Assembly (NCBI GenBank): GCA_005223085.1 | Contig: NJBP01000046.1 | Location: 1-17,161 of the forward strand | Length of the DNA: 17,161 nt | Direction of reading: 5' to 3' | DNA from: Candidatus Aerophobetes bacterium Ae_b3b | GTDB taxonomy: Bacteria > Aerophobota > Aerophobia > Aerophobales > AE-B3A | Shown: positions 2,519 to 9,904 of the stretch, piece after piece | Numbering within the stretch: the stretch's first letter is position 1 | Layout: each line of letters starts with the position of its first letter | Translations under genes and position numbers: made by a program | Notes under the pieces: model-generated | Seen by the model: the letters and a program-made list of their open reading frames with translations, nothing else | Told to the model about the DNA's origin: nothing | The model's database searches: none

Positions 2519-3691
2519 TCACTTTAAAATCCTTGACCTTTCCTCAAAGAAAGCTACCAGATCATGAGGATGGGGAGGGCACCCTGGGACGTACTCACCT
2601 TTTTCTCGAAATTTCTTGGTGCAAAGCCCAATGTTGACCAGCTTTCCCTCATGTTCATCAGGAATCTTAACATTCTGACCAAAGATCAGGGTATAGCCCT
2701 TAAGAAGACCCAATCTACCTTTGCTTTCCATGTAATAGGCAATAACAGCTTCCATTGTGTTTCTACAACCACTACAGGCACCTTTTTCATAAATCTCAAT
2801 TCCTTTTTCTCTGTAGGACGCAAAATCTAATTTTAGCCGTTTAAAGGGTCTTTTTACCTCCTCAATGCGAAGACCCACCACCTCGATCCGGGAAAGATCA
2901 GCGCATCCCAGTCCTTGCTCAGAAGCCAGCTTAACGTATTCTATCTCTAAGGGATCGATCCCCATCACGGCTGCTGCTACCGAGTCAGCAGCTACAGTAT
3001 CAAAAGAAGAGATAATTACTCCGAGATTTACGGGAGTTCCATGAGTAGGTCCCATTCCTTCCATGCCGATTGTACCATCTAAGACGGTAATCTGAGGTAA
3101 AACCAGTTTATTTAAGTCCACAATGGACTGGGCCAGTCCCCATTTGTGAAATCTCTTTTTATCTTTTTCCTGAAGCGCCCCTTTCATATTTTTCAGCCCT
3201 AAGGTTGCCGGAAAGACATCATGGGTTTTCATTACCGGAGCATTAACAACTACATCAGCTTCCATAAAAACTTCGGGAATCTTTAATCTTCTAAAGACCT
3301 TTCCATTGGGTATTCCCAGATAGACAGTTTTGGTTTTTTTTAAGTTGATCAGATCTACCCCTATTCTTGCAGAAATCTCTTTTAATCCAGTGACGGCAAA
3401 GACCTCCTCCGTTTTGGACCCTACACCAGATCCCTCAGCTATGCTCACTTTCCGTGCTCCTGCCTCTTTTGCCAGCTCACACAGAGCCCTAATCACATGG
3501 GGGCTTGTTGTTGCTCCCGTGGTATAGTGATAAGGTGCGATGAGGTTTGGTTTCACCAAAACCCTGTCGCCTGGTGAAACTAAGCTATCCAGGCCTCCAA
3601 TCAGATCAAGAGATTCCTTAACCGCTTTTCTCACACTCAGGTAATCATGAATCTTCTGGCATTTAGCTATAGCAACCTGTGGTTTATTCAT
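2519..3691 (-). CDS. DUF362 domain protein with C-terminal four-cysteine (NuoB-like) tail
   Basis: A 390-residue soluble protein. Residues about 5-280 form a DUF362 domain: GDRVLVKPNL (41-50), a GA-TTSP turn, AEGSG (85-89), VVVNAPVMKTH (147-157), LGLKNMKGAL (164-173) and an aspartate-rich segment around 205-250. The last 90 residues hold CSGC (306-309), GLC (355-357) and PGCPPHP (369-375). Two close cysteines plus two spaced ones, with a GCPP motif, recall the iron-sulfur ligand pattern of the 20-kDa NuoB subunit of complex I, so a [4Fe-4S] cluster is a reasonable inference. The biochemical role of DUF362 proteins of this type is unknown to me. The ATG at 3691 follows AAGGAGG at 11 bases; a GTG at 3694 (spacing 8) is an equally possible start. 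It is separately promoted and apparently not part of the pncC operon. Confidence 0.85.
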   Translation of the reverse strand: MNKPQVAIAKCQKIHDYLSVRKAVKESLDLIGGLDSLVSPGDRVLVKPNLIAPYHYTTGATTSPHVIRALCELAKEAGARKVSIAEGSGVGSKTEEVFAVTGLKEISARIGVDLINLKKTKTVYLGIPNGKVFRRLKIPEVFMEADVVVNAPVMKTHDVFPATLGLKNMKGALQEKDKKRFHKWGLAQSIVDLNKLVLPQITVLDGTIGMEGMGPTHGTPVNLGVIISSFDTVAADSVAAAVMGIDPLEIEYVKLASEQGLGCADLSRIEVVGLRIEEVKRPFKRLKLDFASYREKGIEIYEKGACSGCRNTMEAVIAYYMESKGRLGLLKGYTLIFGQNVKIPDEHEGKLVNIGLCTKKFREKGEYVPGCPPHPHDLVAFFEERSRILK

Positions 3692-3744
3692 CACCTCATA
3701 TCCCTCCTTGCCAAATGGCTAATTATCCCACCTCATTATTATAC

Positions 3745-4070: not shown

Positions 4071-4931
4071 ATGAACTTTCAGGATATTATATCTACCTTA
4101 GAGAATTTCTGGAAAAATCAGGGTTGTTTGATTTTTCAACCTTATGATGTGGAAAAGGGCGCAGGGACATTCAACCCGGCTACCTTCCTAAGGGTCCTGG
4201 GGCCCGAGCCCTGGAGAGTTGCCTATGTGGAGCCATCCCGACGTCCGGCTGATGGACGTTATGGGCAAAATCCTAATCGGATGCGACTTCACTATCAATA
4301 CCAGGTAATTCTCAAGCCCTCCCCTGACGATATCCAGCCTACCTACCTGCAAAGCCTTAAAAAATTGGGCATCCAGCCTCTTCATCATGATATTAAATTT
4401 ATTGAGGACGATTGGGAATCTCCCACTCTGGGAGCATGGGGCTTGGGATGGGAAGTGAGACTGGATGGTATGGAAATTACCCAATTTACCTATTTTCAGC
4501 AGATAGGAGGATTTGATCTAAAACCAATCTCAGTTGAGCTGACCTATGGTCTGGAGCGAATAGGAATGTGCCTTCAGAGGGTGGAAAACGTCTTCGATCT
4601 CCAGTGGAATTCTCACCTTAAGTATAAAGATCTTCAATATGAAAGTGAGGTAGAATTCTCTCGCTATAATTTTGAGGAGGTGGAGGCCTCCACTCAATTT
4701 AAACTATTCGGGATCTATGAGGCTGAAGCAAAAAGGCTTCTGGAAAAGGGACTTTTCCTGCCAGCCTATGACTACGTCCTCAAGTGCTCTCATACCTTTA
4801 ATTTACTTGATGCTCGAGGCGCCCTGGGAGTTAATGAAAGGGAAAGATACATTAAAAGAGTACGTCGCCTAGCTAATAGATGTGCCAGTCTTTATCTTAA
4901 GAAATCGGGTTCGTTAATTTCTGATAGGTGA
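4071..4931 (+). CDS. glyQ: Glycyl-tRNA synthetase alpha subunit
   Basis: A 286-residue class II aminoacyl-tRNA synthetase subunit, the normal length for GlyQ. With the beta subunit it forms the bacterial alpha2beta2 enzyme that activates glycine with ATP and charges tRNA-Gly. Family landmarks are clear: FWKNQGC (13-19), [11 protein letters not shown] (23-33), [12 protein letters not shown] (54-65), [14 protein letters not shown] (126-139), and the motif 3 ELTYGLERI (156-164, R163 as the ATP-binding arginine). The ATG at 4071 fits the family N-terminus and there is no in-frame upstream start. The ribosome site is poor (only CAGG touching the ATG), possibly because a repeat ends 24 bases upstream. 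glyS follows after a 131-base spacer holding another repeat, an unusually wide gap for this pair. Confidence 0.98.
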
Positions 4932-5062: not shown

Positions 5063-7156
5063 GTGGCTGAGACAGCATTGTTAGAGATAGGAGTGGAGGA
5101 TCTACCACCCTCTTTTGTTTGTGAGGCTCTCCAGCAGCTCAAGGAAGAAGGGAAGGAGCTTTTTGCCTCAGCTTATTTGGATTATGAAAGAATCGATACT
5201 TTCGGCAGTTCTCAGCGGCTAGTCTGTCAGGTAGCGGGTCTATCCCCTCACCAGAGACCACGTTTTGACAAAGAAATGGGTCCTCCTCAAATCATGGTTT
5301 TTGATGAGGCTGGAAGGCTTACCTTCCAAGGCAAAGCTTACCTAAAAGCTAAAGGAGTGAAAAAGGAAGATCTAGGGATAGAAAAACTAGAAAAGGGAAG
5401 CTATGTTTACATAAAAAGAAAGAAAATTAGTCAACCCACAGAGAAGCTTCTTCTCTCCCTTTTCCTTGAGCTCATCAAATCTATACATTTTCCTAAATCT
5501 ATGAGATGGGGAAGAGAAGATTTTTCATTTGGACGCCCTATCAGATCTATTTTAGCTTTGTTTGGGGAAAAGCTAATAAGATTCAAGATAGCCGGAATTT
5601 CCTCGCATAGAAAGACGAGGGGACATCGTTTCCTCTCTCCTTCTTATTTCTCGGTGCCGACCGCTCAGGAATACTTTCCCCTTTTGAAAAAAAATTACGT
5701 CATCGTGGACCCGAAGGAACGCAAAAAGCTGATCCTTAGACAGATAGGAAAAATAGCTTCTTCCTTAAGAAAAAATAATCCTGGGGCAAGAATTTATGAG
5801 GATGAGGATCTTTTGGAGGAGCTAGTCTATCTGGTTGAGTATCCTACTTTATTTATAGGAGAGTTTGATCAAAGATTTCTCTCTCTTCCCCAGCCCGTCC
5901 TGAAAGCTTGCTTGAGAGATTATCAGAAGCATTTTTCAGTGGGAGATAGAAAGGGAAGCCTTGCCTATTTTGTGGGAGTAAGAGAAGGCGCCCAAGATCA
6001 CTTGGGAGAGGTGGTGGAGGGTAATCGAAGAGTAATTAACGCACGCTTAACCGATGCCATCTTTTTTCTTGAGGAAGATAGAAAAACTCCTTTAGACAAA
6101 AGAGTATCAGAGCTTAAAGAGATGATTGCCCAGGAAAAACTGGGTAGTTATTATGATAAAACGCTAAGGCTGGTGAAGCTTGCGAGCAGAATCACTTCTC
6201 ACCTGGGGCGCAGCGAGAAAATTAAGGAAAAGGTAAAAGAAGCAGCCTATCTTTGTAAGGCGGATTTAATTACCCAGATGGTCAAGGAATTTCCCTCTCT
6301 GCACGGAATAATGGGCCAGGAATACGCCCTTCAATCTGGAAAAGATCAGGAGGTGGCCCAGGCTATTCTGGAACACAGAATGCCCCGCTTTAGTGGAGAT
6401 GGACTTCCTCGCACAGAGGCAGGAGCAATCCTTGCCTTGACCGATAAAGTTGACACTCTGGTAGGTTCCTTCTGGGCCGGATTTGTTCCCTCCGGAGCAG
6501 GGGACCCCTGGGGTTTGCGAAGAGAGGCACAGGGAATTGTTGAGATAATTTTAGATAAGGAATGGGGAATCAGTTTAGATTACCTGATTAGAGAGTCTTT
6601 AAAGCTTTACGGAGAAAAAACCACCGGAGTTGATCTTAAAGTCAAAGAATTCCTCCGGGCAAGAATTGTCGGGATTCTTAAAGAGAGACAAATTAAAACA
6701 GAGCAGGTTAAAGCCGTCTTAAAGGCCGGTTTCGACAATGTTGTTGATGTAGTTAAAAGAGGGGATGCTCTTCGCAGTGCTGTCACCAGATCAGAATTCA
6801 AAGAAGAGGTAATAGCCATCGTGAGGCTGGTCAACATCTTAAAGCAAGCCGAAGAATGGGGGCTCATGATTCCTGACCATGTAAAGGAAGAGCTTTTGCA
6901 AGAAAAAGAAGAAATGAATCTTTATCGCCATTGGAAAAAGATTGAACCCCAGCTTGAAAAATTGTTACGCGAACAAGATTATCTCCAAGTCTACCAAATT
7001 CTTTCTACTTTGACGCATTCGATTCATGACTTCTTCGAGGGAGTTTTAGTGATGAGCGAAGACAAAACCTTAAGATTAAATCGTCTTTCTCTTTTGAACA
7101 AAATAGGAAAAACTTTTCTCTCTATAGCTGACTTTACCGAACTCCAGGTAAAATGA
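5063..7156 (+). CDS. glyS: Glycyl-tRNA synthetase beta subunit
   Basis: A 697-residue partner of GlyQ, of typical length. The N-terminus ALLEIGVEDLPPSFV (5-19) and the segment KSMRWGREDFSFGRPIRSI (144-162) are diagnostic. The HD-like region contains FPSLHGIMGQEYA (about 410-422), the central region has GAGDPWGLRR (about 477-486), and the C-terminal part is an all-helical DALR-type anticodon-binding domain ending in an FFEGVLVMSED-like segment. The beta subunit recognises and binds tRNA-Gly. Translation starts at GTG 5063, with AGAGGAG five bases upstream and the expected MAE-LLLEIG-type start. It is transcribed with glyQ; a repeat in the intergenic spacer separates them. The stop at 7154-7156 is followed within about ten bases by a second repeat. 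Confidence 0.98.
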   Translation: MAETALLEIGVEDLPPSFVCEALQQLKEEGKELFASAYLDYERIDTFGSSQRLVCQVAGLSPHQRPRFDKEMGPPQIMVFDEAGRLTFQGKAYLKAKGVKKEDLGIEKLEKGSYVYIKRKKISQPTEKLLLSLFLELIKSIHFPKSMRWGREDFSFGRPIRSILALFGEKLIRFKIAGISSHRKTRGHRFLSPSYFSVPTAQEYFPLLKKNYVIVDPKERKKLILRQIGKIASSLRKNNPGARIYEDEDLLEELVYLVEYPTLFIGEFDQRFLSLPQPVLKACLRDYQKHFSVGDRKGSLAYFVGVREGAQDHLGEVVEGNRRVINARLTDAIFFLEEDRKTPLDKRVSELKEMIAQEKLGSYYDKTLRLVKLASRITSHLGRSEKIKEKVKEAAYLCKADLITQMVKEFPSLHGIMGQEYALQSGKDQEVAQAILEHRMPRFSGDGLPRTEAGAILALTDKVDTLVGSFWAGFVPSGAGDPWGLRREAQGIVEIILDKEWGISLDYLIRESLKLYGEKTTGVDLKVKEFLRARIVGILKERQIKTEQVKAVLKAGFDNVVDVVKRGDALRSAVTRSEFKEEVIAIVRLVNILKQAEEWGLMIPDHVKEELLQEKEEMNLYRHWKKIEPQLEKLLREQDYLQVYQILSTLTHSIHDFFEGVLVMSEDKTLRLNRLSLLNKIGKTFLSIADFTELQVK

Positions 7157-7305: not shown

Positions 7306-8109
7306 ATGGCTCTGGTAGGGATAGAAATTTATCCTACACGTGGAATGGTACACGCAATCTGCAAAAAGACGAATCTGGAGACCAGAGATTGGTGTCTTTA
7401 CCCGCTGAGAGATGGAATGGGGCTAGGGAGGATAAAATTTATCTGTTTAAGCAGCGAAAAAACTATCTTTCTGGGCGGAGAAAAAATTAGAAAAGCAACC
7501 CCGGAAGATAGAGCAGAATTTGAACGTCGGTACGAGATTGAGAAAAAATCGTACCAAATAGCTTTAGAGAAAATCTCTTCTCGTGAGCTTCCTATGAAAC
7601 TAATAGCTACCAAGTACCCTTTAGAGAGCAGCCGAATTACCTTTTACTATACAGCTAAAGAACGAGTAGATTTCCGGGCGTTGGTCAAGGATTTGGCGGC
7701 TATTTTTAAAGTAAGGATACAGATGCAGCAGGTTGGGGTGAGAGATGAGCCCCGAGTCCTGGGAGGTTGCGGGATTTGTGGTAGGCCTGTTTGTTGTGCC
7801 TTATTCTTAGGTAAACGTAAAGAAAAGCTCGATTCGGTAAGCCTGGAGGTTGCACGCATACAGAACCTTCCTTTGACCTCCTCCAAAATATCGGGAATAT
7901 GTGGAAGGCTTCGCTGCTGTCTAAATTTCGAATATCCTACATACTCTATTTTAAAGAAAGAACTGCCCCGGGTAGGAGAAATTGTCCGATGGCAAGGGGA
8001 AAATATGAAGGTAATAGCCCAGGATATACTAAAAAAAACCGTGATAGTGGAGACTAAGGAAGGAATAAAAAAACCATTAACTAAGGAGGAGCTAAAAAAC
8101 ATAAGTTGA
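7306..8109 (+). CDS. ricT: PSP1 domain protein, RicT/YaaT-like
   Basis: A 267-residue protein of the PSP1/YaaT family. Residues 109-210 carry the C-terminal PSP1 signature: ITFYYTAKERVDFRALVKDL (111-130), then GGCGICGRPVCC (153-164) and SGICGRLRCCLNFEY (196-210). Cysteines 155, 158, 163, 164, 199, 204 and 205 match the conserved set; in Bacillus subtilis the RicAFT complex containing RicT binds iron-sulfur clusters and affects RNA processing and development. The start is ATG 7306, because AAGGAG lies at 7292-7297 with eight bases of spacing; the longer frame from 7216 only translates the upstream repeat. Its TGA overlaps the next start codon by four bases (TTGA), so it is coupled to the PP-loop enzyme. 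Whether this organism has partners RicA and RicF cannot be told here. Confidence 0.9.
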   Translation: MALVGIEIYPTRGMVHAICKKTNLETRDWCLYPLRDGMGLGRIKFICLSSEKTIFLGGEKIRKATPEDRAEFERRYEIEKKSYQIALEKISSRELPMKLIATKYPLESSRITFYYTAKERVDFRALVKDLAAIFKVRIQMQQVGVRDEPRVLGGCGICGRPVCCALFLGKRKEKLDSVSLEVARIQNLPLTSSKISGICGRLRCCLNFEYPTYSILKKELPRVGEIVRWQGENMKVIAQDILKKTVIVETKEGIKKPLTKEELKNIS

Positions 8110-9083
8110 AGGCCCTAAGTCTATTTTCAGGAGGGCTGGATAGTATCCTGGCCACAAAGCTTTTGCAGCTACAGGGAATTGAAATGGAGGGGGTGTGCTT
8201 TGTCTCCCCCTTTTTTGATGAAAAAAAAGCAACCAGAGCAGCTGAAAATCTGAAGATACGGCTCTATACCGTAGATATGGGAAAGGATCTTCTCCCCCTT
8301 CTTCTTTCACCTCCTCATGGCTTTGGAAAGGGGGCTAATCCCTGCGTTGATTGCCATATTCTCATGGTAAAGAAAGCGGCAAGCTTAATGCAAAAAATAG
8401 GAGCGCACTTTCTGGTGAGTGGAGAGGTCCTGGGGGAAAGACCAAAATCACAGAGCAGATGGGCTCTTAAGGTAGTAAGTGAGGAGTCAGGCTGGGGAGA
8501 TTATCTTCTCCGTCCCCTTACCGCTAAAAATTTATCTCCAACTTTTCCGGAAAAAAAGGAATGGGTGAAGAGAGACCAACTCCTTGGAATCAAAGGACGA
8601 AGTCGAGTGGTCCAATTGAGGCTGGCTGAATCTTTAGGAATCTCGAACTTTCCTACGCCGGCTGGAGGATGCTTGCTTACTGATCCAGTCTTCTCCAAAC
8701 GGGTTAAGGATTTATTAGCCCGGGGAAAGCTCAATCTCAATGAGATCGAACTTCTCAAAATAGGGAGGCACTTTCGCCTGGAGAAAACCGCCAAGCTAAT
8801 TGTTGCCAGAAACAAAGAGGAAAACAGAAAAATTTTAGAGCTGGCTACCCCGGGCGACTTTTTTCTTGAAGTAGCGGACTTTCCGGGACCGGTGGGACTT
8901 CTAAGGGGGGAACCACACCTCATCCTCAAGGCTGCTTCTGTAACCAGTCGTTACAGTGATGCTCCCTCAACGGGGGTAAAAGTGAAGTACTATCAATTCC
9001 CTCATACAGAGGAAAAATACGTTGAAGTAAACCGTGCAGAAGATGAGGAATTGGAGGCACTCAGAATCGGAGGTAGGCCGTGA
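8106..9083 (+). CDS. PP-loop ATPase, tRNA thiouridylase-like (MnmA/ThiI-related) with extra C-terminal domain
   Basis: A 325-residue protein with the N-type ATP pyrophosphatase P-loop SGGLDS at 8-13, near the very N-terminus. NPCVDCH (78-84, C80 and C83) and PAGGCLLTDP (185-194, C189) occupy the places of the paired catalytic cysteines of MnmA-type 2-thiouridine synthases, and SGEVLGERPKSQ (105-116) is typical of this PP-loop subfamily. The likely chemistry is ATP-dependent adenylation and thiolation of a tRNA uridine, but the exact position modified is not established. The C-terminal 110 residues form a separate domain that I believe resembles an NFACT-R-like RNA-binding module (recall, uncertain). 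It starts at TTG 8106, overlapping the ricT stop as TTGA, with GGAGG far upstream, so translation is probably coupled. Its own stop overlaps the next start. Confidence 0.8.
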   Translation: MKALSLFSGGLDSILATKLLQLQGIEMEGVCFVSPFFDEKKATRAAENLKIRLYTVDMGKDLLPLLLSPPHGFGKGANPCVDCHILMVKKAASLMQKIGAHFLVSGEVLGERPKSQSRWALKVVSEESGWGDYLLRPLTAKNLSPTFPEKKEWVKRDQLLGIKGRSRVVQLRLAESLGISNFPTPAGGCLLTDPVFSKRVKDLLARGKLNLNEIELLKIGRHFRLEKTAKLIVARNKEENRKILELATPGDFFLEVADFPGPVGLLRGEPHLILKAASVTSRYSDAPSTGVKVKYYQFPHTEEKYVEVNRAEDEELEALRIGGRP

Positions 9084-9904
9084 GTCTTTATGTCTTTGAC
9101 CTAGATGGGGTGATCTACCGGGGCGAAAGACTTCTTCCCGGGGTAAAAGAGACCCTAACCAAACTCAGAAAGAGGGGAAATCAAGTCTCTTTTCTCACCA
9201 ACAACTCCACCCTGAGTAGATCCGGTTTTCAAAAAAAACTTACCCAAATGGGAATTGAGGTACATCTGGAAGACCTTTTTCCATCCTCCCATCTAGCTGC
9301 TATTTATCTTGGCCACAAAACTAAAAATAAAAACATTAAGGTGCTGGTCTTTGGAGAGGAAGGGCTTTTCGAGGAACTGAGGCAGGCGAGAATTAAGCTT
9401 ACTTCAACCTCAAAGGATGCCAATTATGTAGTAGTTGGAATGGACAGGAAATTTAACTTTGAAAAACTCAAGCTCGCCTATGAGGCTATCTTAAATGGGG
9501 CTAAATTTGTAGCTACCAACAAGGACGTAACTTACCCTACAGAAGAAGGGACTGTTCCTGCTGCGGGAGCGATAGTTAAAGCTCTTGAGGTTTCCACTCA
9601 CAAGAGGGCTTTACTTTTGGGCAAACCTCATCTCTTCGGGCTGAAGACCGTGATGAAAAGCAAAGGGTATACCTCGGCGGATACCATTTTAGTGGGTGAC
9701 GGACTGGAGACAGATATCCTGGTGGGCAAAAGACTAAAGATTGTTACCGTCCTGGTGCTATCAGGAATCACCTTAGAAAAGATGTTACAGAAGGCTCCCC
9801 CTTCTCTCAAACCCGATTATGTAATCCAATCACTCTTGGATCTACCTTCTCTGAAAATTGGACACGGTTATAAAAAATTGGTAAGCTCGATTGATACTCT
9901 CTAA
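9080..9904 (+). CDS. HAD-IIA family phosphatase (NagD/4-nitrophenylphosphatase-like)
   Basis: A 274-residue HAD hydrolase of subclass IIA. Motif I is FDLDGVIY (6-13, nucleophile D7 and acid/base D9), motif II TNNS (40-43), motif III K182 in LLLGKPH, and motif IV VGDGLETDI (205-213, D207 and D212). The large cap domain lies between motifs II and III, as expected for phosphoglycolate phosphatase, NagD and related nucleotide or sugar-phosphate phosphatases; the substrate cannot be chosen from sequence. It starts at GTG 9080, overlapping the previous stop as GTGA. It is the last gene of the ricT/PP-loop group, followed by a weak terminator-like hairpin. It may be a damage-control phosphatase rather than part of tRNA modification. 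Confidence 0.9.
   Translation: MSLYVFDLDGVIYRGERLLPGVKETLTKLRKRGNQVSFLTNNSTLSRSGFQKKLTQMGIEVHLEDLFPSSHLAAIYLGHKTKNKNIKVLVFGEEGLFEELRQARIKLTSTSKDANYVVVGMDRKFNFEKLKLAYEAILNGAKFVATNKDVTYPTEEGTVPAAGAIVKALEVSTHKRALLLGKPHLFGLKTVMKSKGYTSADTILVGDGLETDILVGKRLKIVTVLVLSGITLEKMLQKAPPSLKPDYVIQSLLDLPSLKIGHGYKKLVSSIDTL

Follow-up and report, generated by a model that had tools for sequence, protein, structure and literature searches.

A PP-loop/NFACT-R protein encoded in a phylum-specific glyQS-ricT operon of Aerophobota as a probable non-orthologous replacement of the tRNA 4-thiouridine synthase ThiI

In a genome of Candidatus Aerophobetes, genes for a RicT-type protein, a PP-loop enzyme and a HAD phosphatase follow glyQS and are joined by overlaps of four bases, which raises the question of whether RicT and the PP-loop enzyme act together in RNA modification or sulfur handling, as the initial annotation of this DNA had proposed, and of what the PP-loop enzyme itself makes. 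The window, that is the whole stretch of DNA analysed, is one contig of 17,161 bases (G000:C39) of a 2.04 Mb MAG. The search for related loci returned a single Aerophobetes relative, and the nearest named relative (L002) is a Candidatus Aerophobetes MAG whose PP-loop protein shows 89% identity. The three reading frames lie as first annotated and their families were confirmed (Table 1). Synthesis of RicT starts at ATG 7306, preceded by a GGAG ribosome-binding site, and stops at TGA 8107-8109; the PP-loop gene starts with TTG at 8106 within a TTGA overlap and ends at 9083, and the HAD gene starts with GTG at 9080 within a GTGA overlap and ends at 9904. These starts are supported, since the alignments of homologues begin at the same residues. 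RicT scores 216.6 bits with NF041131 (cut-off 70) and 96.5 bits with PF04468 (PSP1), the PP-loop protein 73 bits with PF18297 (NFACT-R_2; cut-off 26.9) and the HAD gene product 133.1 bits with TIGR01460 (cut-off 100.15). Elsewhere in the window, a DUF362 protein (PF04015) with a CxxC in its C-terminal part is encoded at 2519-3694 on the minus strand.

Table 1. Coordinates of the genes, motifs and domains considered, numbered from the first base of the window
Feature	Position	Strand	Basis
glyQ, glycyl-tRNA synthetase alpha, conserved context	4071..4931	+	family scans
glyS, glycyl-tRNA synthetase beta, conserved context	5063..7156	+	family scans, Aerophobota loci
RicT/YaaT-family protein, PSP1 domain, 267 aa	7306..8109	+	NF041131, PF04468
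PP-loop + NFACT-R_2 protein (PPNF), 325 aa, probable tRNA 4-thiouridine (U8) synthase	8106..9083	+	PF18297, PF02568, fold, ThiI near-exclusion
PP-loop motif SGGLDS, residues 8-13, invariant S8, G9, G10, D12, S13	8127..8144	+	34- and 62-sequence alignments
NPCVDC motif, residues 78-83, invariant C80 and C83, two of three predicted [4Fe-4S] ligands	8337..8354	+	alignments
GGC motif, residues 187-189, invariant C189, third predicted cluster ligand	8664..8672	+	alignments
NFACT-R_2 RNA-binding domain, residues about 220-318	8763..9059	+	PF18297 2.6e-20; RqcH NFACT-R match
HAD-IIA phosphatase (NagD/phosphoglycolate-phosphatase-like), 274 aa, accessory, missing in some loci	9080..9904	+	TIGR01460

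The PP-loop protein belongs to a family, termed PPNF here, as it combines an N-terminal PP-loop with the SGGxDS signature and a C-terminal NFACT-R_2 domain, together with a CxxC and a third cysteine. Across 62 diverse PPNF sequences SGG.DS, NPCxDC and GC are invariant, besides GE, RxxxQ and GR positions, and C80, C83 and C189 are found in 62/62 of them as well as in 34/34 sequences of alignment A1; the thiolase cysteines noticed in the initial annotation are those of the invariant NPCxDC and GGC. In methanogen ThiI three cysteines are essential, two of them in a CXXC (PMC5372739), and NcsA holds a [4Fe-4S] cluster on three cysteines, leaving one iron free (PMC10067955); by analogy, the PPNF triad is of this kind. 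Compared with solved structures, the A1 profile matched MnmA (9hln, 1e-11) and Bacillus anthracis ThiI (2c5s, 1.7e-10), the latter over a segment covering TGExLGQ...SQ and RPL, and its C-terminal part matched the NFACT-R domain of RqcH (5e-7). An AlphaFold model with a mean pLDDT of 93.2 was matched by Foldseek to LarE, MnmA, ThiI and FbpS, LarE chains dominating the list. When the model was realigned, the top match was the Thermotoga maritima ThiI-RNA complex 4kr6 (Z 17.4, rmsd 2.0, 158 residues, 27% identity), followed by LarE at Z about 16, and the C-terminal domain aligned with RqcH NFACT-R at Z 14.1 and rmsd 1.5 over 101 residues. The protein begins at the PP-loop strand, has no Pfam match to NFLD (PF22025) or THUMP and reaches 27 bits with the ThiI equivalog TIGR00342 (cut-off 264.5), although its fold is still closest to ThiI. 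With the MnmA equivalog NF001138/PRK00143 it reaches 18.7 bits (cut-off 284), and a separate strong MnmA-family match (PF03054) lies on contig C11 of the same genome.

The protein looks like the tRNA thiolase that had been guessed, and a more specific role can be put forward. We consider it probable that PPNF makes 4-thiouridine, most likely at U8 of tRNA, as a non-orthologous replacement of ThiI. This reading gains from the distribution of the two enzymes over 386 genomes, in which PPNF was counted by strong PF18297 matches and ThiI by its specific NFLD (PF22025). Using PF18297 alone, 143 genomes carry PPNF and 71 carry ThiI with none shared, against 26 expected. As PF18297 misses divergent PPNF, 80 genomes, which did not include all ThiI genomes, were scored again with the full A1 profile, giving a clean split and adding 26 genomes to the PPNF count: 23 had been ambiguous, and three were among the four genomes included for carrying DUF1722. 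After this rescue PPNF is present in 169 genomes and ThiI in 71, with one shared and about 31 expected. The sole sampled genome with both, G330, has a PPNF and a weak ThiI_fer match. Since the genomes are phylogenetically related, p-values for co-occurrence are inflated, and the more conservative count is that by family: before rescue, both enzymes were found in 2/257 families, in different genera, with 17.6 expected. About 147 of the 386 genomes have neither enzyme, and PF22025 has no match in the 17 Aerophobota genomes.

A second, independent line of evidence comes from RudS, a desulfidase that removes s4U from tRNA and that also occurs in groups with no recognisable ThiI, for which its authors suggested ThiI homologues of a different architecture (PMC11417400). 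Its marker DUF1722 was found in 44 of 165 genomes with PPNF only (27%), in 18 of 70 with ThiI only (26%) and in 8 of 150 with neither (5%; p=2e-7), as recomputed without those PPNF rescues that had been chosen for carrying DUF1722. All four of the sampled DUF1722 matches that were scanned are TudS+DUF1722 fusions. No Aerophobota genome has a DUF1722 match, and hence the association bears on the PPNF family and not on Aerophobota.

Gene contexts point in the direction of sulfur transfer as well. Among 60 PPNF loci sampled from other scattered bacteria, each with a full-length relative, same-strand neighbours include a cysteine desulfurase in nine and TusA in six, either one in 13/60, as compared with 0/40 ricT loci (p=0.0014); because some neighbourhoods are common to related genomes, these 13 loci represent a smaller number of independent events. 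In L095 and L105, the PP-loop gene has a gene for an Rrf2-family regulator immediately 5' of it and one for a cysteine-synthase-like protein immediately 3', Rrf2 being recognised by Pfam in L105 and the remainder by sequence similarity. The Aerophobota operon of glyQS, ricT, PPNF and HAD has no adjacent sulfur-transfer gene, and TusA was found in only 4/17 Aerophobota genomes. The source genome contains a NifS-DsrE_2-TusA cluster on contig C59 (L165:2081-4104, minus strand), a likely sulfur relay for the PP-loop enzyme; its TusA shows 72% identity with that encoded beside PPNF in L063. PPNF occurs twice in another Aerophobota genome (G001), where the second copy shares its block with genes for IscU, an FdhD-like protein and NadA. 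The IscU/NifU_N gene near this copy is split by an intein (L164:9480-10949, minus strand; LAGLIDADG_3 and Intein_splicing matches).

Within Aerophobota the gene order is conserved. The ricT and PP-loop genes are adjacent in 13/13 testable loci, and their 4-base overlap recurs in most relatives and hence is not due to chance. The order glyS-ricT-PP-loop gene-HAD is kept in nearly all sufficiently long loci, which represent seven families. At the same time, the acyP gene, which runs convergently to the block and not in its direction, is retained beside it in 11 loci, and dnaE is conserved in all four loci that reach far enough. As these genes, which are not co-transcribed with the block, are retained too, its conservation is weak evidence of a shared function and is in part mere absence of rearrangement. 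L010 and L016 have no HAD match between the PP-loop gene and acyP, which there follows the PP-loop gene directly, so the operon seems able to do without the HAD gene. HAD was also discarded as a pathway partner because none of the 60 outside loci has a HAD match within about 6 kb of PPNF.

RicT-type proteins were said in the initial annotation to carry iron-sulfur clusters, and cysteines of the Fe-S type are indeed present by alignment with 40 RicT proteins of other bacteria: all six, arranged as CX4CC-X34-CX4CC in the source protein, occur in 14/14 Aerophobota and 40/40 other RicT proteins, and the CX4CC...CX4CC cysteines of Bacillus RicT ligate Fe-S clusters (PMC6751060). In Aerophobota the spacer between the two triads is about 34 residues (window 7777-7920) versus about 30 elsewhere, and a further cysteine, at the position of residue 86 in 34/40 outside proteins, is alanine or valine. 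RNase Y (PF12072) is present in 14/17 Aerophobota genomes. RicA/RicF (PF06133) was found in 0/17, the control search being positive in B. subtilis. In Bacillus, RicA and RicF are required for a stable RicT-RNase Y complex (PMC10470536), and since both are missing here, Aerophobota RicT would act differently or alone.

The absence of RicA and RicF leaves room for another partner of RicT, and together with the invariable adjacency of the mostly overlapping genes it could be taken to mean that a single pathway of RNA modification or sulfur handling unites RicT with the PP-loop enzyme, for example with the RicT Fe-S cluster supplying or sensing sulfur. RicT and PPNF moreover co-occur somewhat above chance (123/143 PPNF genomes, p=9e-6). 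Nevertheless, we rate such a pathway as very improbable, as the proposed survey of gene order upheld the adjacency inside Aerophobota only: ricT lies within about 6 kb of PPNF in 0/60 outside loci, so that the lack of recurring adjacency which the initial annotation had named as counter-evidence is what is found there. Instead, in 40 ricT loci, all taken from PPNF-carrying genomes, ricT is mostly grouped with tmk, holB, metG and tatD-like genes, as recognised from sequence, with none of the desulfurase or TusA genes that flank PPNF, and RicT was undetected in the remaining 20/143 PPNF genomes. With the likewise conserved acyP and dnaE making adjacency partly a matter of inertia, the functional pairing was not sustained, and a RicT-thiolase pathway was dropped as the main reading on the adjacency survey; the overlap marks a phylum-specific operon and is not a sign of a shared pathway, for which there is no support beyond co-expression. 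A narrower version, in which a divergent RicT was recruited as thiolase partner in Aerophobota, linking tRNA thiolation to RNase Y-dependent processing via Fe-S clusters in both proteins, is held to be highly improbable. Long frames upstream in L080 and L109, which resembled fusions, are apparently no more than open frames running long in G+C-rich DNA.

For the PP-loop enzyme, the alternative to be taken most seriously is thiolation of another RNA position (s2U, s2C or an rRNA base), with the ThiI exclusion an indirect effect of lineage. Its PP-loop domain also resembles MnmA and the [4Fe-4S] LarE, NFACT-R is known from the ribosome-associated RqcH, and the exclusion tests share phylogeny. This remains an unlikely explanation, given that the MnmA-family match in the same genome would cover s2U34, that ThiI is the top structural match with the ThiI-type GExLGQ..SQ segment conserved, and that the marker of the s4U-specific RudS tracks PPNF. 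The dominance of LarE chains in the Foldseek list, and LarE-sized PP-loop genes adjoining PPNF in L077 and L103 (recognised by sequence similarity only), could also suggest a small-molecule product, by LarE-like insertion of sulfur into a cofactor and no action on RNA. Hardly any credence is given to this, as an RNA-binding domain spans residues 220-318, ThiI ranks above LarE in the second structural alignment, and neither ThiI exclusion nor RudS association would be accounted for.

Returning to 4-thiouridine synthesis as the preferred reading, from the domains, invariant residues, fold, distribution and gene contexts observed we infer the s4U8 product, the [4Fe-4S] cluster, the sulfur route and the role of RicT as follows. 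The NFACT-R domain would bind tRNA in place of the NFLD/THUMP domains of ThiI, and the PP-loop with ATP would adenylate C4 of the uridine. A [4Fe-4S] cluster would be bound by C80, C83 and C189, with sulfide on its free iron; a cysteine desulfurase would deliver this sulfide, together with a TusA-type carrier in genomes that have one, and the sulfur would then displace AMP. RicT would act separately, as a protein of the RNase Y/RNA-processing type that works without RicA/RicF, and the shared operon would tie together the production of RNA-acting proteins with no need for a reaction common to RicT and PPNF.

Since ThiI is missing from many bacteria, a family that fits the gap of RudS without ThiI (PMC11417400) in the 386 sampled genomes is of wider importance. 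The family narrows the question of ThiI replacement to a single gene, which makes it directly testable, and the reading, if true, would assign a function to proteins that about 44% of the genomes sampled encode. In the literature searched, no experimental study of the PP-loop/NFACT-R family was found. Burroughs and Aravind (2014, RNA Biology) reportedly predicted that proteins with PP-loop and NFACT-R domains carry out tRNA 4-thiouridylation in concert with TusA-like proteins. The domain architecture is the same and the TusA and cysteine desulfurase neighbours were recovered independently here; the Aerophobota PPNF differs in that its operon contains glyQS, ricT and HAD and has no sulfur carrier gene adjacent, and what is added here is the counted ThiI exclusion, the link with RudS and the finding that ricT and PPNF pair only locally. 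The RicT (YaaT) of Bacillus, part of the RicAFT/RNase Y complex, is matched in the six cysteines and in the occurrence of RNase Y in Aerophobota, whereas the lack of RicA/RicF, the longer spacer and another gene neighbourhood set Aerophobota RicT apart. With the MnmA/NcsA/TtuA/[4Fe-4S] LarE class PPNF has in common the PP-loop chemistry and a trio of cysteines predicted to bind a [4Fe-4S] cluster, but RNA-binding parts and targets differ and PPNF scores far below the curated MnmA cut-offs. ThiI shares the fold and signature of the PP-loop domain, and methanogen ThiI also the CXXC + C triad (PMC5372739), whereas PPNF, without NFLD (PF22025), THUMP or rhodanese domains, carries a C-terminal NFACT-R domain instead.
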